A DNA stretch of 64,000 nt from contig NZ_JASHIK010000004.1 of the NCBI RefSeq assembly GCF_030733745.1, positions 1 through 64,000 of the forward strand, read 5' to 3'. The notes beneath the pieces were generated by a model. That model worked only from the letters and a program-made list of their open reading frames with translations, ran no database searches and was not told the DNA's origin. Positions 7,854 to 54,883 of the stretch are shown piece by piece (position 1 is the stretch's first letter; each line of letters starts with the position of its first letter). The position numbers and the translations under genes were made by a program. This DNA comes from Stappia sp. MMSF_3263 (GTDB lineage: Bacteria > Pseudomonadota > Alphaproteobacteria > Rhizobiales > Stappiaceae).

Positions 7854-9269
7854 TCAGGCGGTCGCTTCGGCCGTCTTGCCGGCGCGGGCCGCGTTCGCCT
7901 CGCCGATGTCCCAGAACAGGCCGGCCATCATCGCCAGCGCTTCGCGGGTCATGGAATGAAGCGCGTGCTCGTTCGGCGCGTGCTGGGAGCAGCCGGGGTA
8001 GGAATGCGGCACCCAGACGGTCGGCAGGCCGAGAATGTCGGCGAAGGTCTCGTTCGGCAGCGAGCCGGCGAGGTTCGGCAGGATCGCCGGCTTCTTGCCC
8101 GTGGTCGCCTCGATGGAGGTCTTGACGCGCGTGACCCAGGGATGGTCGGGGTCGAGTCGCGTTGCTTGGAAGAAACCCCGGTCGGCGGGAATGATCTCTA
8201 CCATCCCGAAGCCATGGGTATCGAGGTGACGGCGCAGCGCCGGCAGGATGTCGTCCGGATCGGTGCCGACCACATAGCGCAGCTGGCAATGGGCATGGGC
8301 GCGGCCCGAGATGGCGTTGACCGGAGCGGACGGCACGCCGCTGGTCTGGGCGAGAATGGCGAAGCTGTTCCAACCGAAGACGCGCTCGGACGGGGTCAGG
8401 CTCTCCTCGCCCCAGTCGGTGTCGACGGAAGGACCGTCGAACCCGCCCACCGGGCAGTCCTTCAGCGCCTCGCGCACGGCCGGCGTCAGGCTTGTCGGGC
8501 GCCATTCGGGCACCTGGATCTGGCCGCGGCGGTCGGTGATCGAGGCGAGCGCATGGGCCAGCACCATGGCCGGGTCGCGCAGCAGCCCACCCCAGTTGCC
8601 CGAGTGGTGGGCGCCCTCGCGCAGCTCGACGCGCAGGTCGAAATTGACCGCGCCGCGCGAGCCCATGAACAGGGTCGGCCGGTCGGGATGCAGGCGCGGG
8701 CCGTCGGAGGCGATCAGCACGTCGGCGGCGAAGGTCTCGCGGTTCTGCGAGAACAGCTCGGCAAGGCCGGGCGAGCCGCATTCCTCACCCATCTCGATGA
8801 TGATCTTGCAGTTGAAGCCGAGCGAGCCGCGCTCCTCAAGGATCGTCCGCAGCGCCGCGATGTTGATGCAGTGCTGGCCCTTGTTGTCGGCTGTGCCGCG
8901 CCCGTAGAGCTTGTCGCCCTCGCGCACCAGGCGGAAGGGATGCAGCCCCTCGCGCCACTGGTCGGTCTGGGCGCGGATGACATCGCCATGGCCGTAGGTG
9001 AGCACGGTCTCGAAGGCCGGGTCCTCGATGCGCTCGGCAAAGAGGAAGGGCACGGACGGGTCGACCGGGTTGGTCATGATGCGGCAGGTGAAGCCGAGCC
9101 CGGTGAGCTTGGGCTCCATCTCCTCGACGAGGTAGCGCATCAACTCCGCCCGGCGGGACGGGTCCTGGCTCTCGGTCTCAAAGGCGAGCATGCGGGCCAG
9201 CTCGGTCTCGTAGCCGCCGTTCGAAAGGAAATTGTCGATGCGCGCGATGGCGCTCTCACGGTTTGCCAA
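7854..9269 (-). CDS. M20 family metallopeptidase
   Basis: A 471-residue cytoplasmic peptidase of the M20 (ArgE/DapE/CPG2) family. Metal-site motifs are present: YGHGDV (about residue 90), [10 protein letters not shown] (about 125) and MGEECGSPG (about 160). No ATG lies near the family N-terminus. The best start is a TTG at 9269, one base after the transferase stop codon and preceded by GAGGGAG, giving [13 protein letters not shown]. Last gene of the peptide-uptake operon; with the gamma-glutamyltransferase it could finish hydrolysis of imported peptides such as Cys-Gly released from glutathione. Substrate inferred from context only. Confidence 0.85.
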
Positions 9270-16527: not shown

Positions 16528-17310
16528 GTGGGGAAGGACAAGCAGGACACGTTGTTCGTCGGGTCCCTGGAGAAGGGCATGCGCGTTCTCAATGCGTTCG
16601 GCGAGCGCTACACCGTTCTGGGGCTTACCGAAATTGCGGAGTTGACCGGCCTCGACAAGAGCGCTGCCCAGCGGCTGACGAACACGCTCCACAAGATCGG
16701 CTACCTGCACAAGGATCCGGATTCGCGCCGCTACAGTCCTTCGGTGAAATTGCTTGAACTCGGCAATGCCTATCAGTGGGCGGACCCTCTGGTTCAGCTG
16801 GCCATGCCCAAGATGATCGAACTCGGCAAGCAGCTCGGAGAGCGCGTTAATGTCGCCCGGCTTGCCGGGACCGAGATCGTCTATGTGATCCGCATTCCCA
16901 CGCAGCTGACGGCATTCGGCGCGATGATCGCGGGTCGGCGCTTGTCCGCTCTCACCACCTCGAGCGGCCGGGCCATGATCGCCCGGCTTGGCGAGGCCGA
17001 GCGCAAGGAGGCGATCGCGACCTGGCCGATCACCGCGCTGACGCCGAAGACCACGCTCGATCGGGCGAAGATCGCCGAGGAAATCGAGAAGGCGGTTGCT
17101 TGCGGCTACGGCCTGACCCAGAGCGAGAACATCATGAACGAAATCGGCATCGCGGCGCCGATCACGACCGCTGACGGGCGCCCGGTGGCAACGGTCCAAT
17201 GCTCGATCTCGAGCCTGAAATGGTCGCTGGAAAGAGTGCGCGAGGAAATCGCGCCGCACCTGATCGAAGTGGCGAACTCCATCCATCTTCCGGCACAGGG
17301 CAAGGCCTGA
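16528..17310 (+). CDS. IclR family transcriptional regulator
   Basis: A 260-residue regulator. The N-terminal winged helix has LTEIAELTGLDKSAAQRLTN (about residues 29-48) as its recognition part. The C-terminal IclR effector domain includes TSSGRAMIARL and the closing SENIMNEIGIAAPI segment. The preferred start is the GTG at 16528, with GGGAGAG a few bases upstream and a length typical of the family; the frame is open further to 16447. It is divergent from the gamma-glutamyl peptide operon and likely controls it. Confidence 0.87.
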   Translation: MGKDKQDTLFVGSLEKGMRVLNAFGERYTVLGLTEIAELTGLDKSAAQRLTNTLHKIGYLHKDPDSRRYSPSVKLLELGNAYQWADPLVQLAMPKMIELGKQLGERVNVARLAGTEIVYVIRIPTQLTAFGAMIAGRRLSALTTSSGRAMIARLGEAERKEAIATWPITALTPKTTLDRAKIAEEIEKAVACGYGLTQSENIMNEIGIAAPITTADGRPVATVQCSISSLKWSLERVREEIAPHLIEVANSIHLPAQGKA

Positions 17311-45731: not shown

Positions 45732-46466
45732 ATGTCAGCGTTTTTCGAGGAACTGGACTATCGCCCGACGCCGATCGGCGCGCTCTCCCTGCGCCGGCGC
45801 CGGGAGCTGTCGCTGGGGCAGGACGTGTTCGAGATCAAGCTCGGCGAGGAATTCCTCATGTCGAGCCTGTTCACCGCGTCCGAAATCGCGCTGGCCCGGC
45901 TTGGCGTCGCGGCGGCTGAAGGCGAGGCGCTCGATGTCGTGGTTGGCGGTCTCGGCCTTGGCTACACCGCCCGCGCCGTGCTGGACAGCGACACGGTGGC
46001 GACGCTGACGGTGGTCGAATTCCTGCAGGCGGTGATCGACTGGCACGAGGAAGGCCTGCTGCCGCTCGGGCCGGAGCTGGTCGCCGATCCGCGCTGCCGC
46101 TTCCTGCAGGGCGATTTCTTCGCCCTTGCCGCCGGCGACGAGGGGCTGGACCCTGGAGCACCGGGCCGCCGGTTCGATGCGATCCTTGTCGATATCGACC
46201 ATTCCCCGGACTGGCTTCTCGATGACCGCAGCACCGGTTTCTACCGGCCCGAAGGCCTGCAGGCGATGGCCCGCTGGCTGAAACCCGGTGGTGTCTTCGG
46301 CCTTTGGTCCGATGCGCAGCCGGATGCCGGCTTCACGCAGCGGCTGGCATCGGTCTTCGCCAGCGCCTGGGCCGAACCGGTCACGTTCCACAATCCGCTG
46401 CAGGACCGACCCTTCACCCAGACGGTCTATCTGGCGCGAACCGCCGCGGAAGGGGACGCCGTCTGA
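45732..46466 (+). CDS. Spermidine synthase-like protein (Rossmann methyltransferase fold)
   Basis: A 244-residue protein with a class I SAM-dependent fold: VVGGLGLGYTARAVL (about residues 59-73) is the nucleotide-binding glycine loop, and VVEFLQAVIDWH contains the acidic residue after strand 2. It is annotated-style as spermidine synthase-like. The catalytic segment is VDIDHSPDWLL rather than the usual DSSDP-type motif, so aminopropyl transfer is not assured and it could be a methyltransferase relative. Start at 45732 after GAGGAGCC. It lies beside polyamine genes. Confidence 0.7.
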   Translation: MSAFFEELDYRPTPIGALSLRRRRELSLGQDVFEIKLGEEFLMSSLFTASEIALARLGVAAAEGEALDVVVGGLGLGYTARAVLDSDTVATLTVVEFLQAVIDWHEEGLLPLGPELVADPRCRFLQGDFFALAAGDEGLDPGAPGRRFDAILVDIDHSPDWLLDDRSTGFYRPEGLQAMARWLKPGGVFGLWSDAQPDAGFTQRLASVFASAWAEPVTFHNPLQDRPFTQTVYLARTAAEGDAV

Positions 46467-46522
46467 CACGGCCCGGGGCGGGAGAGCCAATCTCCTGTCG
46501 CGACATCCCGTGGGTGTCTGAA

Positions 46523-46540
46523 GATTCATGTTTGTGAATC
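46523..46540. repeat. Short inverted repeat upstream of the SOS operon
   Basis: GATTCA (46523-46528) and TGAATC (46535-46540) with a TGTTTG loop, 57 bases after the spermidine synthase-like stop codon and about 40 bases before the SOS promoter. May be a weak terminator or an additional operator. Confidence 0.3.
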
Positions 46541-46580
46541 AATGGCCTGCGGAGCGCAGTGGTCGGCGGGAAGACTCTGA

Positions 46581-46609
46581 TTGCATTTGTTCCCTTTTTG
46601 TTCTTTCAT
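46581..46609 (+). promoter_or_regulatory. LexA (SOS) box inside the promoter of the mutasome operon
   Basis: GTTC-CCTTTTT-GTTC at 46589-46603 is a perfect alphaproteobacterial SOS box (GTTC-N7-GTTC). It lies inside the 17-bp spacer between TTGCAT (46581-46586) and TTTCAT (46604-46609). The predicted transcription start is about 46616, which is also the A of the chosen ATG, so the mRNA may be leaderless. LexA binding here would block RNA polymerase directly. Confidence 0.8.
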
Positions 46610-46615
46610 TTGGGC

Positions 46616-47326
46616 ATGCAATACACCCTGCCTTTTGCAGCCGAGAACCCGCTCTTGCGGATCCACGGACTGCTGCTTGACCGCTTCGGTCCGGTGCCCG
46701 CGTGCCACCGGCTCGATCCTGTCGACATGCTTGTCTTCGCGATGCTGAGCGGCAGGACGCGGGACGAGATCGCGATGCGCACCTTTGTCGACCTGAAGGC
46801 GTGGCTGGAGAACTGGGAGCAGCTTGCCGGGATGAACCCGGCCGCCGTCGAACCGTTGATCGCGGATGTGACCTTCGCCGAGAGGAAGGCCTGCCATCTC
46901 CCGGCCGCGCTGCAAGAGATCATCCGGCGGCGGGGGGCTCTCGATCTCGGATTTCTTGCCGCCTGGCCGGTGGATGAGGCGCGCCACTGGCTGGAACGGC
47001 TGACCGGCGTCGGCGCGAAGACCAGCATGGCGGTTCTCAACCTGAGCAGCCTGCACCTGCGCGTGCTGATGGTCGACACGGCGCATAACCGGGTTGCCCG
47101 GCGTCTCGGTCTCGTTCCGCAAAAGGCGGACATCGCCCGCACCGCGCGGCTGCTCAACCGGTGTCTTCCCTTCTGCTGGACCGCCGATGACACGGAAGAT
47201 CACCATGTCCTGATGCAGCGGCTCGGGCGGGTTCTTTGCGTTCATGCCCGGCCATGCTGTGCCGACTGTCCGTTGCTGGCGACATGCCGGACCGCTGCGG
47301 CATCGGCTCCGCGGAGGCTGTCATGA
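46616..47326 (+). CDS. Endonuclease III-like DNA glycosylase/AP lyase, first gene of SOS operon
   Basis: A 236-residue HhH-GPD protein. The helix-hairpin-helix LTGVGAKT (residues 129-136) includes K135, the position of the Schiff-base lysine of endonuclease III. D154 in MVDTAHNRV matches the catalytic aspartate. The 4Fe-4S cluster cysteines C208, C215, C218 and C224 keep the C-x6-C-x2-C-x5-C spacing. It should excise damaged bases or nick abasic sites. The in-frame GTG at 46559 is rejected because the SOS box and promoter lie after it. Its stop overlaps the imuA start by 4 bases, tying it to the error-prone polymerase genes. Confidence 0.85.
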   Translation: MQYTLPFAAENPLLRIHGLLLDRFGPVPACHRLDPVDMLVFAMLSGRTRDEIAMRTFVDLKAWLENWEQLAGMNPAAVEPLIADVTFAERKACHLPAALQEIIRRRGALDLGFLAAWPVDEARHWLERLTGVGAKTSMAVLNLSSLHLRVLMVDTAHNRVARRLGLVPQKADIARTARLLNRCLPFCWTADDTEDHHVLMQRLGRVLCVHARPCCADCPLLATCRTAAASAPRRLS

Positions 47327-48132
47327 GTCGAAACGAGGCGGTCACGGCCCTGCGTGCCCGCGTCGCCGGCTGGCAGCGGCGCGAGGCGTCGCCCTGGCCT
47401 GTCGTCGGGCTCGGCCTGGAAGAGGCCGGGGACCGTCCGGCCGCCGGAGGGCTTGCGAGCGGTGCCCTGCATGAGGTGCTGCCGGAAGCGCCTGCGGACT
47501 TTGCCGCTGCGGCGGGCTTTGCCCTCGCCATCTCCTCGCGCATCCTGCGGGTGCGGGAGGGGCATGTCCTGTGGGTATGTCCGGGCGTGCGGGGCAGGCA
47601 GGCCGCAAGCCTTTACCCTGTGGGCCTTGCCGGGTTCGGCATCGATCCGGGTCGTGTCGTCCGTGTCGAGGCGTCAAGGCCGCGCGATCTCCTGTGGAGC
47701 CTGGAGGAGGCCTTGTCCCACGCTTCGCTGGCGGCCGTCATCGGCATCCTGGCGGATGGTGACCGGTCCTATGACTTCACGGCAAGTCGGCGCCTGTCCA
47801 TGCGTGCCGCGCAAAGCGGTGCGACGGCGCTGCTGCTGGGCAGTCGCAGCGGTCTCGACATGGCGACGGCGTCGCAGACACGCTGGTCGGTCGCCTCCGG
47901 GCCAAGTGCTCCGGCGCAGTACACCGGTCAGGCGGTGCCCGGGCTCGGTCCGCCGCGCTGGCAGGTTCGCCTGGTAAAGTCCCGGGCGGATTCCCTTGGT
48001 CTTTGGGAACTCGAGTGGAACCATGAAACGCTATCTTTCCGTCTGGCTTCCCCGCTGGCCGGTCGAGCGCCGCTTCGCCATGCGCCCGGCCTTGTTCGCG
48101 AACCGGCAGGAGGACACTGGACCGCGGCCTGA
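47323..48132 (+). CDS. imuA: ImuA family protein of the SOS mutasome
   Basis: A 269-residue RecA/SulA-like protein of the ImuA family. Recognisable parts are SGALHEVLPEAPADFAAAAGF (in part, residues 45-62) and the RecA-like core strand VLWVCPG with the later ARLVKSR-like segment WQVRLVKSRAD. ImuA proteins help ImuB and DnaE2 carry out translesion synthesis. It overlaps the upstream endonuclease III-like gene by 4 bases, and imuB begins 110 bases before its stop in another frame. Confidence 0.85.
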   Translation: MSRNEAVTALRARVAGWQRREASPWPVVGLGLEEAGDRPAAGGLASGALHEVLPEAPADFAAAAGFALAISSRILRVREGHVLWVCPGVRGRQAASLYPVGLAGFGIDPGRVVRVEASRPRDLLWSLEEALSHASLAAVIGILADGDRSYDFTASRRLSMRAAQSGATALLLGSRSGLDMATASQTRWSVASGPSAPAQYTGQAVPGLGPPRWQVRLVKSRADSLGLWELEWNHETLSFRLASPLAGRAPLRHAPGLVREPAGGHWTAA

Positions 48133-49612
48133 GGTTCGCGGCCCCCTGGCACTGTCGATGACGGTGCAGGGGGCAGTCCGCGTCACTGCGGTCAATGACG
48201 CCGCGGCGGAACTGGGACTGGCGGCGGGCATGTCGCTTGCCGATGCCCGGGCCATTCATCCCGCCCTTGCGGTCGCGCAGGCGGACGAGGCGGGCGATGC
48301 CGCGGCCTTGCGCGCCCTTGCCCTGTGGTGCCAGCGCTACAGCCCGCTGACCCGTGTCGATCCGCCGGACGGTCTTTGCATCGACATCACCGGCTGCGCT
48401 CACCTCTTCGGCGGTGAAGAGGCCCTGATGGAGGATCTCGCCCGCCGGCTGCGGGCCTTCGGGCTTTCCGCGCGCCTCGCCATCGCCCCGACCATCGGCG
48501 CCGCCTGGGCGATGGCGCGCCATGGCGAGACGGTGGCGGAGAGCGTGGAGCCCGGACAGACCGGCGCGCGTCTTGCCGCGCTTCCCGTTGCCGGGTTGCG
48601 GATCGAGGCGGCGACCGTTCAGGCGCTGGGGCGGCTTGGCCTCGACCGCATCGGCCTTGTCGCGGGCAAGCCGCGCGCGCCTCTTGCAGGCCGCTTCGGC
48701 GCGATGCTTGTCCGGCGCCTCGATCAGGCGCTGGGCCGCGAGACGGAGCGCTTTGATCCTCTTTCGCCGCCGCCCGTCCATCTCGCGACGCTCCGCTTTG
48801 CCGAGCCGGTCATCACCCTTGAGGCGATAGCGCAGGTGGCGGAGCGGCTGGTCGAGGAACTCGCCGCGACCCTGGGCGCGGCCGGAAAGGCGGCCCGGCG
48901 CCTGGAATTGGCGCTGTTCCGGGTCGACGGCTGGCGGGAGGCGCTTGAACTGCGCATCAGCCGGCCGAGCAATGATCCGCGCCATCTGACAAGGCTCCTG
49001 GGGGAGCGGCTCGACAGGATCCGCGATCATGCGGGCTTCGGCTTCGAGGTCGCCGTCCTTGCCGCCTTCGACGTGGAAAATGCCGAAGCGGTCCAGTCCG
49101 CGCTGGTCGCCGGCGGCGGTGTCGAGGCGGATCCGGACGGGTTTGCCCGGTTGCTCGACCGCTTCGTCAACCGCCTCGGCCCAGCCAGCGTCACCCGGTT
49201 CGCGCCGAACGAAAGCTATATGCCCGAACGCGCGGTCCGTCCGGTCTCGGTGCTTGCCCGGTTGCCGGCGCATGACTGGCACGCGCATTGTCGTGCCCTG
49301 CAAGGCGCGGCCGGGTCGGCGAGGCCGTCGCTGTTGCTGGAGCGGCCCGAGCCGGTCGAGGTGCTTGTCGAGATGCCCGACAAGCCGCCGGCCCGCTTCG
49401 AGTGGCGACGCGTCTCGCATCGTGTCGCCCGCGCCGACGGGCCGGAACGGATCGCGCCCGAATGGTGGAAGGGAGGCAAGGAAAACCGGTCCACCCGGGA
49501 TTACTACCGGATCGAGGATGTGGAGGGGCGGCGCTTCTGGCTGTTCCGCGAAGGTCTCTACGACCGGGACGGGGACAGTCCGCGCTGGTTCATGCACGGG
49601 CTGTTCGCATGA
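48023..49612 (+). CDS. imuB: ImuB, catalytically dead Y-family polymerase homologue
   Basis: A 529-residue Y-family-like protein that starts MKRYLSVWLPRWPVERR. The N-terminal aspartate of active Y-family polymerases is replaced in this start, and the acidic pair of the SxDE motif is replaced in LCIDITGCAHLFGG, as expected for ImuB, which acts as an adaptor between the beta clamp and DnaE2. The C-terminal GPERIAPEWW and TRDYYRIED segments are typical. The ATG at 48023 lies inside imuA, giving a 110-base out-of-frame overlap. Confidence 0.9.
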   Translation: MKRYLSVWLPRWPVERRFAMRPALFANRQEDTGPRPEVRGPLALSMTVQGAVRVTAVNDAAAELGLAAGMSLADARAIHPALAVAQADEAGDAAALRALALWCQRYSPLTRVDPPDGLCIDITGCAHLFGGEEALMEDLARRLRAFGLSARLAIAPTIGAAWAMARHGETVAESVEPGQTGARLAALPVAGLRIEAATVQALGRLGLDRIGLVAGKPRAPLAGRFGAMLVRRLDQALGRETERFDPLSPPPVHLATLRFAEPVITLEAIAQVAERLVEELAATLGAAGKAARRLELALFRVDGWREALELRISRPSNDPRHLTRLLGERLDRIRDHAGFGFEVAVLAAFDVENAEAVQSALVAGGGVEADPDGFARLLDRFVNRLGPASVTRFAPNESYMPERAVRPVSVLARLPAHDWHAHCRALQGAAGSARPSLLLERPEPVEVLVEMPDKPPARFEWRRVSHRVARADGPERIAPEWWKGGKENRSTRDYYRIEDVEGRRFWLFREGLYDRDGDSPRWFMHGLFA

Positions 49613-52600
49613 TGCCGTCTTCCCATCCGCACGCCTCTCCCGCCTATGCTGAACTGGCGGTGACCAGCAATTTCAGCTTCCTGCGCGGCGCCTCCCATGC
49701 GGCCGAACTGGTCGAGACGGCGGCCCGGCTCGGGCTTGCCGCCATCGGCATTGCCGACCGCAACACCCTTGCCGGTGTCGTGCGCGCCCATGTGGCGGCC
49801 CGGGAGCATCCCGTCCGCCTGCTGGTGGGCGCGCGGCTGGTGCTGCGCGACGGGTTCGAGGTGATTGTCTACCCGAGCGACCGCGCCGCCTATGGCCGGC
49901 TCGGCAAGCTGCTGACGACAGGCAACCGGCGCGCACCCAAGGGAGAGTGTTATCTCGACTTCGACGACCTTGCCCTGCTTGGCGGCGGGCAGCATCTGCT
50001 TGCCATGCCCCCCGACATGCCAGGCGCGGCGTTCGAGCAACGGCTGACGCAGCTCGCCGAGGCGTTTCCCGGCATGGTCTCGCTTGCGCTCTCGCCGCGT
50101 TACCGCGGCTTGGATCGCGCCGGTTTCGAGCATCTCGCATGGCTTGCGGAAAGATGCGGCGCGCCTCTTCTGGCCACCAATGACGTGCTCTACCACACGC
50201 CCGGCCGCCGCCCCTTGCAGGACGTGCTCACCTGCATTCGCGAACACGTGACCATTGACGCGGCCGGCTTCCGCCTGGAGCGCAATGCCGAACGCCATCT
50301 GAAGACACCTGCCGAGATGGTCCGCCTTCTGTCCGGTTACGAGAAGGCAATTGCCCGCAGCGTCGAGATCGCGGAGGCCTGCCGTTTCAGCCTCGACGAA
50401 CTGTCGCCCTGTTATCCCGACGAGCCGTCGGGCGAAAGCGCCACGCCGCAGGAGGAACTCGAGCGGCTCACCTGGCGCGGTGCGGCGGAACGGTTTCCAG
50501 GTGGTGTCGGCGACACGGTCAGGGCAACGATCGAGCGTGAGCTTCGCCTGATCGGCGAACTCGGTTACGCCTCCTATTTCCTCACCGTCCAGGACATCGT
50601 CCGCTTCGCCCGTGCCCAGCAACCGCCGATCCTCTGCCAAGGGCGGGGCTCGTCGGCCAATTCCGTCGTCTGCTTCTGCCTCGGCATCACCTCGGTCGAT
50701 CCGACCGAGATCGATCTTCTGTTCGAGCGTTTCATCTCCGCCGCTCGCGGCGAACCGCCAGACATCGATGTGGATTTCGAGCATGAACGGCGCGAGGAGG
50801 TGATCCAGTACATCTACGCCAAATACGGGCGTGACCGGGCCGGGCTCGCGGCGACCGTCATCCGCTACCGGGCGCGCAGCGCGGTCAATGACGTGGGCAA
50901 GGTGATGGGCCTGTCGGCGGATGTCGTGATGGCGATGTCGGGGTTGATCTGGGGCTGGTCCGGCAAGGTTCCCGATGCGAACGAGATCCGCCAGGCCGGC
51001 CTCGATCCGTGCGATCCCCGGCTGGTGCAGACGTTCCGCCTCGTCCGGCAGCTGATCGACTTTCCGCGTCATCTCTCCCAGCATGTCGGCGGTTTCGTCA
51101 TCACCCGCGAGCCGCTCGATGAGGTGGTGCCGGTCGCCAATGCGGCGATGCAGGACCGCACCGTGGTCGAGTGGGACAAGGACGATCTCGACGCGCTCGG
51201 CATCCTCAAGGTCGACGTGCTGGCGCTCGGCATGCTGACCTGCCTGCGCAAGAGCTTCGACCTTCTGCGCGGCGGCTATGGCGTCGACTTGGGTCTCGCC
51301 ACCGTGCCGCGCGAGGACCCGGCCACCTACAAGATGATCCGGAAGGCCGACACGGTCGGCATCTTCCAGATCGAGAGTCGCGCCCAGATGTCGATGCTGC
51401 CGCGCCTCAGGCCGGAAAATTTCTACGACCTCGTCATCCAGATCGCCATCGTCCGCCCCGGCCCGATCCAGGGCGACATGGTCAATCCCTATCTGCGCCG
51501 CCGTAGCGGGCTGGAGAAGGTCGATTATCCTTCGCCTGAACTGCGGGCGGTACTGGAAAAGACCATGGGCGTGCCGCTTTTTCAGGAACAGGCGATGAAG
51601 ATCGCCATTGTCGCGGCGGGCTTTTCCCATGACAAGGCCGACCGGCTGCGCCGGGCCATGGCCTCCTTCCGCAACATCGGCACGATCGAGCAGTTCCGCG
51701 AAGAATTCGTCGCCGGCATGATCGCCAACAGATACGAGCCGGACTTCGCCGCCCGCTGCTTCGAGCAGATCAGGGGATTCAGCGACTACGGCTTTCCCGA
51801 AAGCCACTCCGCCAGTTTCGCATTGCTCGCCTATGCCTCCTCCTGGCTCAAGTGCCACTATCCGGACGTCTTCGCCTGTGCGCTGCTCAACGCCCAGCCG
51901 ATGGGCTTTTACTCCGTCTCCTCCATCGTGCGCGATTTCCGCGCCCATGGCGGCACGGTGCTTCCGGTGGACGTCAATCACAGCGGCTGGGACCATGCAC
52001 TGGAGCCGCTGGACGCTCCGTCGGCCCCGACCGCATCGGGCGGCAATGCTTTCGCGCTGCGGTTGGGCCTGCGCCAGGTCGATGGTCTTGGGGAGGAAGC
52101 GGGCCGCCGGCTGGAGGCGGCCTGCAACCGCCCGTTCGCCGATATCGGCGATCTCTATGCACGGGCCCGGCTCGACAACCGCGCCCTCACCGCCCTTGCC
52201 AATGCGGATGCGTTCCGATCGCTCGGCCTGGACCGGCGCCAGGCCCTTTGGGAGGCGAAGGGGCTTGCCGGGCGGGTCGGTCGGGGGGCGGGGCAGGAGC
52301 AACTGCCGCTTTTCGCCGATCCTTCCGGTATCTCTTCCCTGATGCGGGACGAGGCGAAGGTCGATCTGCCTCGGATGCGCCCGGGCGAGCATGTGGTGGA
52401 GGACTACGCGACGCTGCACCTGTCCCTGAAGGCGCACCCCTTCTCGTTCCTGCGCGGGGATCTCGCCAAAAGCCGGACGCTGAAGGCTGTGGAGCTGGAC
52501 AAGGCGGGCAACGGCCGGTGGGTGCGGGTGGCCGGCCTCGTGCTGGTGCGCCAGCGTCCCGCGACGGCAAAGAATGTCACCTTCCTGACGCTTGAGGACG

Positions 52601-52890
52601 AGACCGGCATTGCCAATGTCGTGATCTGGAGCCGGATTTTCGAGCAGAGCCGGCGCATCGTCATGGGTGCGCGCGCGATCGCCGTCGAAGGCCCGGTCCA
52701 GCAGGAAAGCGGGGTCATCCACGTGGTGGCGCGGCGGCTTCACGACCTGACGCCGGCATTGATGGACGCCATGTCGGCGGGGAGCGGGGGCGAAGACAAG
52801 GCGCCCGCAACGGGTGTGTCAGGCCAGCCGAGCCTCTGGCGCCATCCGCGCGACACCCGCGTGCTGCCCAAGGGGCGGAACTTTCAGTGA
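49609..52890 (+). CDS. dnaE2: Error-prone DNA polymerase DnaE2
   Basis: A 1093-residue C-family polymerase, the catalytic subunit of the SOS mutasome. An N-terminal PHP domain starts AELAVTSNFSFLRGASHA (residues 14-31). The polymerase active-site aspartates are D385 and D387 in PDIDVDFEH. GRGSSANSVVCF and SQHVGGFVITREPL are conserved polymerase segments; an OB-fold lies near residue 970. It performs translesion synthesis and damage-induced mutagenesis. It overlaps imuB by 4 bases. Length is normal for DnaE2 and shorter than replicative DnaE1. Confidence 0.95.
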   Translation: MMPSSHPHASPAYAELAVTSNFSFLRGASHAAELVETAARLGLAAIGIADRNTLAGVVRAHVAAREHPVRLLVGARLVLRDGFEVIVYPSDRAAYGRLGKLLTTGNRRAPKGECYLDFDDLALLGGGQHLLAMPPDMPGAAFEQRLTQLAEAFPGMVSLALSPRYRGLDRAGFEHLAWLAERCGAPLLATNDVLYHTPGRRPLQDVLTCIREHVTIDAAGFRLERNAERHLKTPAEMVRLLSGYEKAIARSVEIAEACRFSLDELSPCYPDEPSGESATPQEELERLTWRGAAERFPGGVGDTVRATIERELRLIGELGYASYFLTVQDIVRFARAQQPPILCQGRGSSANSVVCFCLGITSVDPTEIDLLFERFISAARGEPPDIDVDFEHERREEVIQYIYAKYGRDRAGLAATVIRYRARSAVNDVGKVMGLSADVVMAMSGLIWGWSGKVPDANEIRQAGLDPCDPRLVQTFRLVRQLIDFPRHLSQHVGGFVITREPLDEVVPVANAAMQDRTVVEWDKDDLDALGILKVDVLALGMLTCLRKSFDLLRGGYGVDLGLATVPREDPATYKMIRKADTVGIFQIESRAQMSMLPRLRPENFYDLVIQIAIVRPGPIQGDMVNPYLRRRSGLEKVDYPSPELRAVLEKTMGVPLFQEQAMKIAIVAAGFSHDKADRLRRAMASFRNIGTIEQFREEFVAGMIANRYEPDFAARCFEQIRGFSDYGFPESHSASFALLAYASSWLKCHYPDVFACALLNAQPMGFYSVSSIVRDFRAHGGTVLPVDVNHSGWDHALEPLDAPSAPTASGGNAFALRLGLRQVDGLGEEAGRRLEAACNRPFADIGDLYARARLDNRALTALANADAFRSLGLDRRQALWEAKGLAGRVGRGAGQEQLPLFADPSGISSLMRDEAKVDLPRMRPGEHVVEDYATLHLSLKAHPFSFLRGDLAKSRTLKAVELDKAGNGRWVRVAGLVLVRQRPATAKNVTFLTLEDETGIANVVIWSRIFEQSRRIVMGARAIAVEGPVQQESGVIHVVARRLHDLTPALMDAMSAGSGGEDKAPATGVSGQPSLWRHPRDTRVLPKGRNFQ

Positions 52891-52982
52891 GCTTCCGCCG
52901 GGCAGGCATCCGTTCCGGCCCTTGCCCTTGCCGCCGGGGAGCGGCACGGTGTGGCATCGGCCGCCAGGAGAGGAGCACGGAC

Positions 52983-53468
52983 ATGACAGGCGTGATCATT
53001 CATCTGTTGCTGTGGATCTGCGCGCTTGGCTGCGCGCTGATCGCGGGGCTCTACTTCGCCTTTTCCACCTTCATCATGACGGCGCTGGGGCGCATCCCGG
53101 CGCCGGCCGGCATCGCCGCGATGCAGGCGATCAACGCCGTCATCCAGCGTTCGCTCTTCATGCCGTTGTTCTTCGGGACGACGCTCGCCGCCCTTGCCCT
53201 TGCGGCTCTCGCCTTGTGGCGCTGGGCGGACGCCGGCAGCGCGATGATGCTTGCCGGGGGGCTTGTCTATTTCGCCGGCATGTTCGTGTGCACCATCGTC
53301 TTCAACGTGCCGCTCAACAACCGGCTCGACGCGGCCGATCCGCAAAGCGAGGCCGCGCAGGAGACATGGACCCGCTACCTGCGTGACTGGACCAGGTGGA
53401 ACCATGTGCGCACCCTCGCATCGACCCTGGCCGCGGGCCTCTTCGTTCTTGCCCTTGTGCCGCGCTAG
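52983..53468 (+). CDS. DUF1772 membrane protein (anthrone oxygenase-like)
   Basis: A 161-residue protein with four predicted helices, including MTGVIIHLLLWICALGCALI and GLVYFAGMFVCTIVFN. The late motif NVPLNNRLDAADP followed by WTRYLRDWTRWNHVRTLAS is the DUF1772 signature. Related fungal proteins act as anthrone oxygenases; the bacterial role is not established. It lies 92 bases after dnaE2 and just before the ECF41 promoter. DUF1772 genes often accompany CMD and ECF sigma genes, so it may belong to that module. Confidence 0.8.
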   Translation: MTGVIIHLLLWICALGCALIAGLYFAFSTFIMTALGRIPAPAGIAAMQAINAVIQRSLFMPLFFGTTLAALALAALALWRWADAGSAMMLAGGLVYFAGMFVCTIVFNVPLNNRLDAADPQSEAAQETWTRYLRDWTRWNHVRTLASTLAAGLFVLALVPR

Positions 53469-53487
53469 CAGGATTTTTTCGCGTGCA

Positions 53488-53514
53488 TGTCACATCCGGC
53501 GACCTTGTCTCGTC
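53488..53514 (+). promoter_or_regulatory. ECF41 sigma factor promoter
   Basis: TGTCACA (53488-53494), exactly 16 bases, then CGTC (53511-53514). This is the consensus described for ECF41 promoters. It lies 33 bases before the AhpD-like gene that is co-transcribed with an ECF41 sigma factor, so autoregulation is expected. Confidence 0.8.
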
Positions 53515-53546
53515 ATGATGTCGGAACCCAAAAAGGAGACGGTACC

Positions 53547-54002
53547 ATGACTGCACAACTTGATCCCTTCGCCGCTGCCCCGACCTTGATGAAGAAGTGG
53601 TTCGGCTTTTCGCAGGACGCCGCCGGCAGCCTTGAGCCGAGCCTGATCGAACTCGTGAAGATCCGTGCCTCGCTGATCAACGGCTGCGCCAACTGCATCA
53701 ACATGCACACCGCCGAGGCGCGCGCCCAGGGCGAGAGCGAGCAGCGCATCTACCTGCTTGCGGCCTGGCGCGAGGCGCCGTGCTATACCGAGCGCGAACG
53801 CGCGGCGCTGGCCTGGACCGACGCGCTGACGAAGCTTTCGCAAGGCCATACGCAGGAGGCGGCCCGTGCCGATCTCACGGCCCATTTCACCCAGGAGGAA
53901 CAGGTGAAACTCACGCTGATGATCAACGTCATCAACGGCTGGAACCGGTTGGCGGTCGGCTTCGACCTGTGGGTCGAAACTCCGGCGCAGGCTGTCGCCT
54001 GA
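53547..54002 (+). CDS. Carboxymuconolactone decarboxylase/AhpD-like protein
   Basis: A 151-residue protein of the CMD/AhpD family. The redox motif C-x2-C-x3-H is present in INGCANCINMHTAEA (about residues 47-61), and the last part LMINVINGWNRLAVGF is typical of the group. Such proteins are peroxide-related reductases. AAAAGGAG precedes the ATG at 53547. It is the conserved partner (COE-type oxidoreductase) of ECF41 sigma factors and overlaps the sigma gene by one base (TGATG). Confidence 0.88.
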   Translation: MTAQLDPFAAAPTLMKKWFGFSQDAAGSLEPSLIELVKIRASLINGCANCINMHTAEARAQGESEQRIYLLAAWREAPCYTERERAALAWTDALTKLSQGHTQEAARADLTAHFTQEEQVKLTLMINVINGWNRLAVGFDLWVETPAQAVA

Positions 54003-54883
54003 TGACGACGGCAGGATCGGATGACGCGGCGGCGAGTTTCGCGCCGCTGCGTCCCCGGCTCGTGCGCGTCGCCTACCGCATGCTCGGTTCGGTGACCGAC
54101 GCCGAGGATGCCGTGCAGGAGGCCTTCATCCGCTGGATGAAGACCGAACGGGGTGAAATACGCGAGCCCGAGGCATTCCTGCGCCGGGTTGTGACGCGGC
54201 TCTGCCTCGACCAGCTCAAGTCCGCAAGGCGTCAGCGCGAGACCTATATCGGCCCCTGGCTTCCCGATCCCGTCCTTGACGAGGAAGAGGAAGACGATGT
54301 CACCCTGCCCCTGATGCTGGCGCTGGAGCGGCTGTCGCCGCTCGAGCGCGCCGCCTTCCTGCTGCATGACGTGTTCGGGCTCGATTTCGACGAGGTCGCC
54401 GCCACGATCAAGCGCGAGCCGGCGGCCTGCCGGCAACTCGCGGCCCGGGCTCGCGGCCATGTCCGGCAGGAACGCCCCCGGTTCAAGCTCGAGAAAGAGC
54501 GGGGCCTGGAGCTTGCCGAGGCCTTCTTCGCCGCCTCGCGCAGCGGCGACATGACCGCTCTCGGCGCGATGCTGGCGGCGGATGTCAGCATCCATTCGGA
54601 TGGCGGTGGCAAGCGTCCGGCGGCGCTTCGCCCGATCATTGGCCTGGAAGGCGTCCTGAAGCTGCACGCCTATCTGGCAACGCTCTTCATCGAGAACGGT
54701 TCGCGGCTGGTGCGCGCCGGCTTCATCAACGGACTGCCGGGCTTTGTCACGCTCGAGGCGGACGGGGAGTTCCAGACGACCGCGCTCGACATCGAGGACG
54801 GCAAGGTCGCGGCCATCTATGTGATGCGCAATCCGGGCAAGCTCCGGCACCTGCGACAGACCCTCGACCCGGTGGCCAATTGA
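54002..54883 (+). CDS. ECF41 family RNA polymerase sigma factor
   Basis: A 293-residue ECF sigma factor with a SnoaL-like C-terminal extension. Sigma region 2 (AYRMLGSVTDAEDAVQEAF, residues 24-42) and region 4 (ERAAFLLHDVFGLDFDEVA, about 115-133) are clear. All three ECF41 hallmark motifs are present in variant form: WLPDP (86-90), DGGGK (200-204) and NPGK (277-280). In this group the extension controls activity in place of an anti-sigma factor. No anti-sigma gene is seen here. It shares a transcript with the CMD gene. Confidence 0.92.
   Translation: MTTAGSDDAAASFAPLRPRLVRVAYRMLGSVTDAEDAVQEAFIRWMKTERGEIREPEAFLRRVVTRLCLDQLKSARRQRETYIGPWLPDPVLDEEEEDDVTLPLMLALERLSPLERAAFLLHDVFGLDFDEVAATIKREPAACRQLAARARGHVRQERPRFKLEKERGLELAEAFFAASRSGDMTALGAMLAADVSIHSDGGGKRPAALRPIIGLEGVLKLHAYLATLFIENGSRLVRAGFINGLPGFVTLEADGEFQTTALDIEDGKVAAIYVMRNPGKLRHLRQTLDPVAN

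Follow-up and report, generated by a model that had tools for sequence, protein, structure and literature searches.

An HhH-GPD DNA glycosylase gene recurs in the imuA-imuB-dnaE2 mutasome operon of Stappia and other lineages

Why would a gene for a base-excision enzyme stand at the head of an operon for error-prone DNA synthesis? In many bacteria it is the ImuA-ImuB-DnaE2 mutasome that drives induced mutation. The question is raised by a 64,000-nucleotide stretch of the Stappia sp. MMSF_3263 genome (NCBI RefSeq assembly GCF_030733745.1, contig NZ_JASHIK010000004.1, positions 1 to 64,000 of the forward strand), hereafter the window, in which imuA, imuB and dnaE2 are preceded by a gene for an HhH-GPD, or endonuclease III-like, DNA glycosylase. 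The glycosylase is encoded in the mutasome operon in several lineages, and it is highly likely to be a partner of the mutasome or of the SOS regulon. The explanation that we favour, and consider probable, is that of a LexA-controlled, probably clamp-tethered glycosylase working with ImuAB-DnaE2 and clearing base lesions in the neighbourhood of the translesion patch. Comparison gives good support for the partnership, and the mechanism is an inference. The features concerned, all on the plus strand, are as follows.

46589..46603, plus strand: LexA-type box GTTC-N7-GTTC (GTTCCCTTTTTGTTC), found by pattern and in the same place in 14/14 intact head cassettes
46616..47326, plus strand: HhH-GPD / endonuclease III-like DNA glycosylase gene, 236 aa, start ATG (PF00730, AlphaFold2, Foldseek)
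46619..46636, plus strand: codons of the N-terminal hexapeptide QYTLPF, a putative sliding-clamp-binding motif (motif counts; disordered N-terminus of the model)
47323..48132, plus strand: imuA, 269 aa, beginning within the ATGA overlap (NF033429 at 3e-08, below cut-off; order kept in related genomes)
48023..49612, plus strand: imuB, 529 aa (PF00817 and PF11799 above cut-off; orthologues)
49609..52890, plus strand: dnaE2, error-prone polymerase, 1093 aa (NF004225 at 1382 bits, cut-off 939)

The genes are tightly packed. The box ends 12 nt before the glycosylase ATG, the ATGA at 47323-47326 is both the glycosylase stop and the imuA start, and the imuA/imuB and imuB/dnaE2 overlaps measure 110 nt and 4 nt. 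A sequence-only reading of the locus had proposed a perfect LexA box directly before the glycosylase gene, a 4-base overlap with imuA, and imuA-imuB-dnaE2 downstream; the first two are as described, the position of the box being kept in related cassettes, and the downstream genes are borne out by family matches and conserved gene order. Below, G numbers denote genomes, L numbers loci and C numbers contigs of the window's own genome.

Can the box be trusted? The pattern alone does not establish its significance, as the window holds three GTTC-N7-GTTC matches against 1.41 expected, a number within chance and reached by 14 of 100 shuffles. The other two perfect matches lie at 48007-48021 on the minus strand, inside imuA just upstream of the imuB start, and at 16585-16599 on the plus strand. 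Position is more telling. In all 14 head genes whose start lies on the contig, drawn from four families, a perfect box begins at positions -26 to -28 relative to the start codon, whereas 25 loci, 431,014 bp in total, contain 17 background boxes (0.004 per 100 bp). We take the window box as real because of this recurrence against a low background. Where the glycosylase gene instead lies at the tail of the cassette, a perfect box stands ahead of imuA in 6/6 cases. Of 47 unlinked imuB loci whose sequence extends far enough, 41 show a perfect box at 600-1500 nt ahead of imuB, which is where imuA begins. The box thus usually precedes imuA, and the glycosylase gene of the head cassettes lies between the two. 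In the same genome, perfect matches to the pattern also precede recA and lexA, 183 and 255 nt ahead of where their domain matches begin. Read from the conserved box, the glycosylase gene is probably under LexA control.

Shared control could be all there is to the association. Eight unlinked glycosylase genes (G359, G703, G461, G686, G431, G616, G1092 and G1001) have a perfect box of their own within 50 nt of the start, and so keep the LexA box alone. This is what would be expected if the enzyme were an extra SOS base-excision activity with no action on the mutasome, the operon being a mere regulatory neighbourhood. The enzyme does look like an extra: the genome holds four HhH-GPD matches, namely the window gene, a MutY-like gene (C11), a canonical-looking Nth gene (C9) and a further match (C47), the MutY-like and Nth-like labels having been given by reading the sequences. 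Nevertheless, we regard plain co-regulation as unlikely, since two independent operon positions, complete linkage in one family and a fusion to ImuA exceed what shared control needs, and the N-terminal motif of the protein points to the clamp.

How general is the linkage? The glycosylase family is carried by 44 sampled genomes, with no double counting. The gene is linked to the imuA-imuB-dnaE2 operon in 21 of them, at the head in 15 and directly after dnaE2 in 6, and these linked carriers span six genera and five families of one order; another 8 are unlinked with a box, and 15 have neither. Four borderline carriers are included in the total (G414, G918, G921 and G1004, expectation values (E) of 1e-31 to 1e-33). 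Thresholds varied by search (E of 1e-10 for the protein search, 1e-25 for A1, 1e-30 for A2 and A4), and scoring in the order, class and phylum searches covered the 7-9 best first-look candidates of each genome, which makes absences soft. By simple arithmetic, chance alone would place a given gene no more than 6 kb from imuB in roughly 0.2% of genomes of 5 Mb.

In the window's genus the gene is present in 6/14 genomes, and in its family in 6/87; all six genus carriers have glycosylase-imuA-imuB-dnaE2 with a LexA box, and, of the named genomes, Stappia indica, Stappia sp. TSB10P1A and Stappia sp. WLB 29 are the closest to encode an orthologue. The order sample yields 16 carriers among 297 genomes, of which 11 are linked: four Stappia, G209, Filomicrobium insigne (G299, locus L047) and G307 as heads, and G171, G204, G232 and G278 as tails, with G200, G276, G297, G348 and G359 unlinked. 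The family of G307 is the clearest case, with nine carriers in 69 genomes and all nine linked (seven heads and two tails, G797 and G798). Outside the order, the nine class carriers are all unlinked. The phylum sample has 16 carriers in 398 genomes, and the nine new ones have no mutasome gene within the 1.5-kb flanks, which is the region checked. A plasmid search returned four records, none linked. A scan of genome contigs gave seven loci, of which four were linked; the three unlinked ones are contigs of metagenome-assembled genomes (MAGs), two from Acidobacteriales and one from Anaerolineales. The Acidobacteriales relatives (L046 at 7917-8675, and L048) are 38-42% identical to the window protein and unlinked to the mutasome, and we attribute to chance a GC-rich GTTC-N7-GTTC that precedes the L046 match by 58 nt.

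In two genomes the link is closer still. The glycosylase and ImuA of G752 and G765 form one 465-residue open frame with no stop between them (L118 3194-1797 on the minus strand, and L120 from 8706 on the plus strand), the G765 fusion starting at GTG. Both genomes are drafts, and they group as sisters in the glycosylase tree (support 100/99). Their sister G767 has a frameshifted glycosylase gene, the only decayed one among the 15 heads, and its portion downstream of the frameshift shares the reading frame of imuA. Seeming dnaE2-glycosylase fusions in the G171 and G797 loci were rejected on a hand check, as the long open frames there are out of frame. Because natural fusions suggest contact, a direct tether to ImuA can be envisaged: the glycosylase would be a physical subunit of a four-part mutasome, held to the clamp by its N-terminus and bound to ImuA directly, converting or clearing base lesions in the single-stranded gap as it is being copied by DnaE2. 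We put this forward tentatively, as a possibility on the doubtful side. If true, base excision and translesion synthesis would be one coupled reaction, and the presence of the glycosylase would set the mutagenicity of the SOS response.

What could bring the enzyme to the gap? A candidate is its N-terminus. Q-x-x-[L/F/M] plus a hydrophobic residue is found there in all 22 proteins of alignment A4 that come from heads, tails or LexA-boxed genes and in 0/7 proteins of a HesB-like, non-SOS sister group; two of these seven rows began at the match and, read from the start (one a doubtful TTG), are still without the motif. Over 2000 shuffles of the residues, the loose pattern fitted a mean of 4.2 and at most 12 of the 22 rows, and a stricter version a mean of 0.8 and at most 5. 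The window protein begins MQYTLPF, and those of G431 and G798 begin MQLSLPL and MQLSLF. Three boxed proteins outside the motif set fit by eye (G616 MQLGLGF, G1092 MQLSLSL, G1001 MQSSFGF), and the broken G767 protein (MQVISPF) does not fit. Five further rows, two from Acidobacteriales and three of sphingomonad type, contain one fit to the loose pattern. The motif lies in residues 1-8, which are predicted to be disordered (AlphaFold2 predicted local distance difference test, pLDDT, below 50). The window DnaE2 has QLPLF at residue 898 and QPSLW at 1073, and simple patterns found no clear QxxL[F/L] motif in the window ImuB and ImuA. In the literature, an N-terminal QLSLPL of Hda is required for beta-clamp binding (PMC3836487, in excerpt), the bacterial clamp-binding consensus is given as QL(S/D)LF (excerpt of PMC9690074), and the mycobacterial mutasome depends on QLPLWG of ImuB (PMC10421592, in the available part). 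Judging from its sequence, the glycosylase N-terminus is rather likely to bind the sliding clamp.

Is the enzyme active, and on what? HhH-GPD PF00730 is the sole Pfam domain of the 236-residue protein (30.4 bits, cut-off 26.2). The NCBIfam models for the DR2438-type glycosylase (NF053634: 8.4e-25, 87.6 against a cut-off of 400) and for endonuclease III nth (TIGR01083: 1.4e-14, 54.2 bits against 211.7) both match below their cut-offs. Orthology with the housekeeping Nth is rejected on that second score and on the separate Nth-like gene of the same genome. The sequence-only reading had the four 4Fe-4S cysteines and the catalytic pair intact, and alignment agrees: Cys208-X6-Cys215-X2-Cys218-X5-Cys224 is invariant in 34 proteins, and K135 and D154 are each kept in 33/34, with E in place of D154 in G613. 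The AlphaFold2 model, built from eight sequences, has a mean pLDDT of 91.2 and a predicted template modelling (TM) score of 0.86, with residues 234-236, besides the N-terminal eight, below 50. Foldseek ranks Deinococcus EndoIII-1 first (8a5f, 4unf; E 3e-11, TM 0.77, 29% identity); EndoIII-3 has a higher TM (0.83) but an E of 8e-11, and Nth and MutY follow. EndoIII-1 is also the best phmmer match (E 2.7e-18). The enzyme is very probably an active glycosylase.

The likeness to EndoIII-1 opens a further possibility. That enzyme is described as a mostly monofunctional glycosylase of lower activity that also processes single-stranded DNA (excerpt of PMC10523315), and R47 of the window protein aligns with the arginine exchanged in its R61Q entry. 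A monofunctional enzyme would leave abasic sites intact, and fusion to ImuA would put it at the gap. The recruited glycosylase could then turn blocking lesions in the single-stranded template into abasic sites that DnaE2 copies, thereby promoting mutation. However, copying of abasic sites by the DnaE2 of this group and action on single-stranded DNA are suppositions, and K135 and D154 are typical of a bifunctional enzyme. It should be noted that this pair does not settle apurinic/apyrimidinic lyase activity, because EndoIII-1 keeps the aligned lysine and aspartate and is yet reported as mostly monofunctional. On balance, we consider such lesion conversion improbable.

Could the gene simply have been carried along by mobile cassettes that acquired it by chance, with no joint function? 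The glycosylase tree has 41 rows (broken G767, two-piece G616, G758 at a contig end, and the phylum rows were omitted), several long branches and some joins flagged as unsure. Nine unlinked, boxless rows form the HesB-like clade (99/99). The 29 rows of another clade (80/93) include every head (13), tail (6) and LexA-boxed solo row (5), together with five that have neither, two from Acidobacteriales and three of sphingomonad type. In an ImuB tree of 70 rows, the 21 linked cassettes fall on separate ImuB lineages with six changes, five of them forced by starred branches; this was a quick tree, for which imuB loci were chosen by top score and not at random, and its change counts do not separate gain from loss. 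The eight genomes of the window's genus that lack the glycosylase all have imuB, and their ImuB is 42-45% identical to that of the window against 69-70% in carriers (other ImuB lineages are seen at L132, L133, L134, L135, L137, L138, L140, L142 and L147; G078 has two imuB genes). As the ImuB of the non-carriers belongs to other lineages, the trees suggest that the whole mutasome cassette has been exchanged within the genus, which is the point in favour of hitch-hiking. Chance acquisition is nonetheless very improbable. The linkage occurs on several ImuB lineages and at both operon ends, box spacing is held over four families, and LexA boxes are kept in unlinked relatives. Further, the ratio of nonsynonymous to synonymous substitution rates (dN/dS) is 0.06-0.22 among five close Stappia orthologues and 0.32-0.37 against the window, and such low values indicate purifying selection on the glycosylase gene.

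The association does not extend to the whole subfamily. SOS linkage at that level was rejected, as the HesB-like clade (Methylobacterium- and Azospirillum-type) lacks box, linkage and motif, and sphingomonad-type rows (G613, G515) adjoin guaA and have no box. Sphingomonad-type relatives (L041 8001-8705; L098, L099) directly follow guaA, again with no LexA box, and some start MQLxLGP-like. The Azospirillum relatives (L039, and L040 at 7998-8717) come after nosP and a hybrid histidine kinase and are annotated as 'Fe-S cluster assembly protein HesB'; for an HhH-GPD glycosylase this seems to be a misannotation. In the window itself, dnaE2 is followed on its 3' side (52887-54883) by an anthrone-oxygenase-like membrane gene, a carboxymuconolactone-decarboxylase-family gene and a sigma-70-family factor.

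In the explanation that we favour, DNA damage would cause LexA to leave the box and the four genes would be co-transcribed, as the box, the overlaps and their conservation suggest. The disordered N-terminus, in which a Q-x-x-[L/F]-x-[F/L] motif is observed, may then dock the enzyme on the beta sliding clamp. In mycobacteria, this clamp is the assembly platform of the mutasome. On clamp-loaded DNA at a gap filled by DnaE2, the enzyme would excise pyrimidines that are damaged, probably by oxidation, near or after the patch of translesion synthesis, and removal there would clear tolerated lesions. We hold the question of whether abasic sites are cleaned up, and not created, to be evenly balanced.

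The conserved linkage to the imuA operon, which the sequence-only reading had proposed to look for in related genomes, is borne out by the 21 of 44 carriers in six genera, the box before 14/14 intact heads and the two fusions. Several observations nevertheless weigh against the explanation. The gene is patchy, both within the window's genus (6/14 genomes) and in the class sample (11/385), and 15 of the 44 carriers have neither linkage nor box. In the order sample, imuB is found in 243/297 genomes and the glycosylase in 16/297, so that the mutasome does not need the glycosylase; most of these genomes have ImuAB-DnaE2 alone, which also speaks for plain co-regulation. Only 15 of the 22 SOS-associated proteins fit the stricter N-terminal pattern, and the patterns were drawn up after the alignment had been seen, on rows that are related. 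The LexA-boxed protein of G431 has E in place of K135. The two fusions may go back to one event, or possibly to faulty assembly of both genomes. Finally, the promoter spacer in which the box had been placed was not confirmed, as a sigma-70 scan of 46400-47000 gave no promoters; TTGCAT and TTTCAT hexamers were seen by eye only.

What would such a partnership mean? The composition of the mutasome and the role of ImuA-type proteins have been called unsettled (PMC10421592, in the part available). Recurrence in the operon, the shared LexA box and the ImuA fusion offer a handle on what ImuA brings to the gap, and on a possible coupling of base excision to translesion synthesis. The presence of the glycosylase could also explain differing SOS mutation rates between close relatives, given its scattered occurrence in the genus. 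Collectively, the comparison suggests that damage-induced mutation has a partner that has been overlooked.

Among known systems, the closest enzyme is Deinococcus radiodurans EndoIII-1 (DR2438; PDB 4unf, 8a5f, 8a5c), which shares the HhH-GPD fold with a 4Fe-4S cluster and the arginine at the R61Q position. The window protein differs in being about 29% identical to it and in falling under the DR2438 model cut-off. We know of no link of DR2438 to the mutasome or to LexA. With E. coli-type Nth the protein shares the superfamily, the catalytic Lys and Asp and the C-X6-C-X2-C-X5-C pattern; it differs in its sub-threshold TIGR01083 score and in coexisting with a separate Nth-like gene on contig C9. 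Nth has Gln41 where the window protein has Arg47. The lexA-imuA-imuB-dnaE2 cassette, reportedly described by Abella in 2004, Galhardo in 2005 and Erill in 2006, has the same imuA-imuB-dnaE2 order and a LexA box at its head, whereas the operons considered here carry, in addition, a glycosylase gene, which either separates imuA from the box or follows dnaE2. Neither searches of open literature nor the available parts of PMC1839093, PMC3765255, PMC3919608, PMC10883770, PMC9426580, PMC12926913, PMC10421592 and PMC12700426 brought up a description of an HhH-GPD gene within an imuA operon, a scope that leaves out most subscription papers and the three founding papers of the cassette. The word glycosylase occurs 0 times in the available text of a 2026 survey of DNA polymerase modules (PMC12926913) and of the mycobacterial mutasome paper (PMC10421592). 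The SRAP and ImuB-C partners of SOS operons were likewise spotted as accessory genes by their imuA, imuB and dnaE2 neighbourhood, but their domains are unrelated to HhH-GPD, and the same work names uracil DNA glycosylases with SplB/DUF4130 operons and no HhH-GPD enzyme with imuA (PMC3765255, in the portion available). Mycobacterial Nei2 and XthA on the beta clamp set a precedent for base-excision enzymes on a bacterial clamp, although they belong to other enzyme families and have no tie to a mutasome operon (excerpt of PMC9690074). Set beside these systems, the locus combines a cassette already known with a recurrent partner that is new to it and belongs to an established enzyme superfamily.

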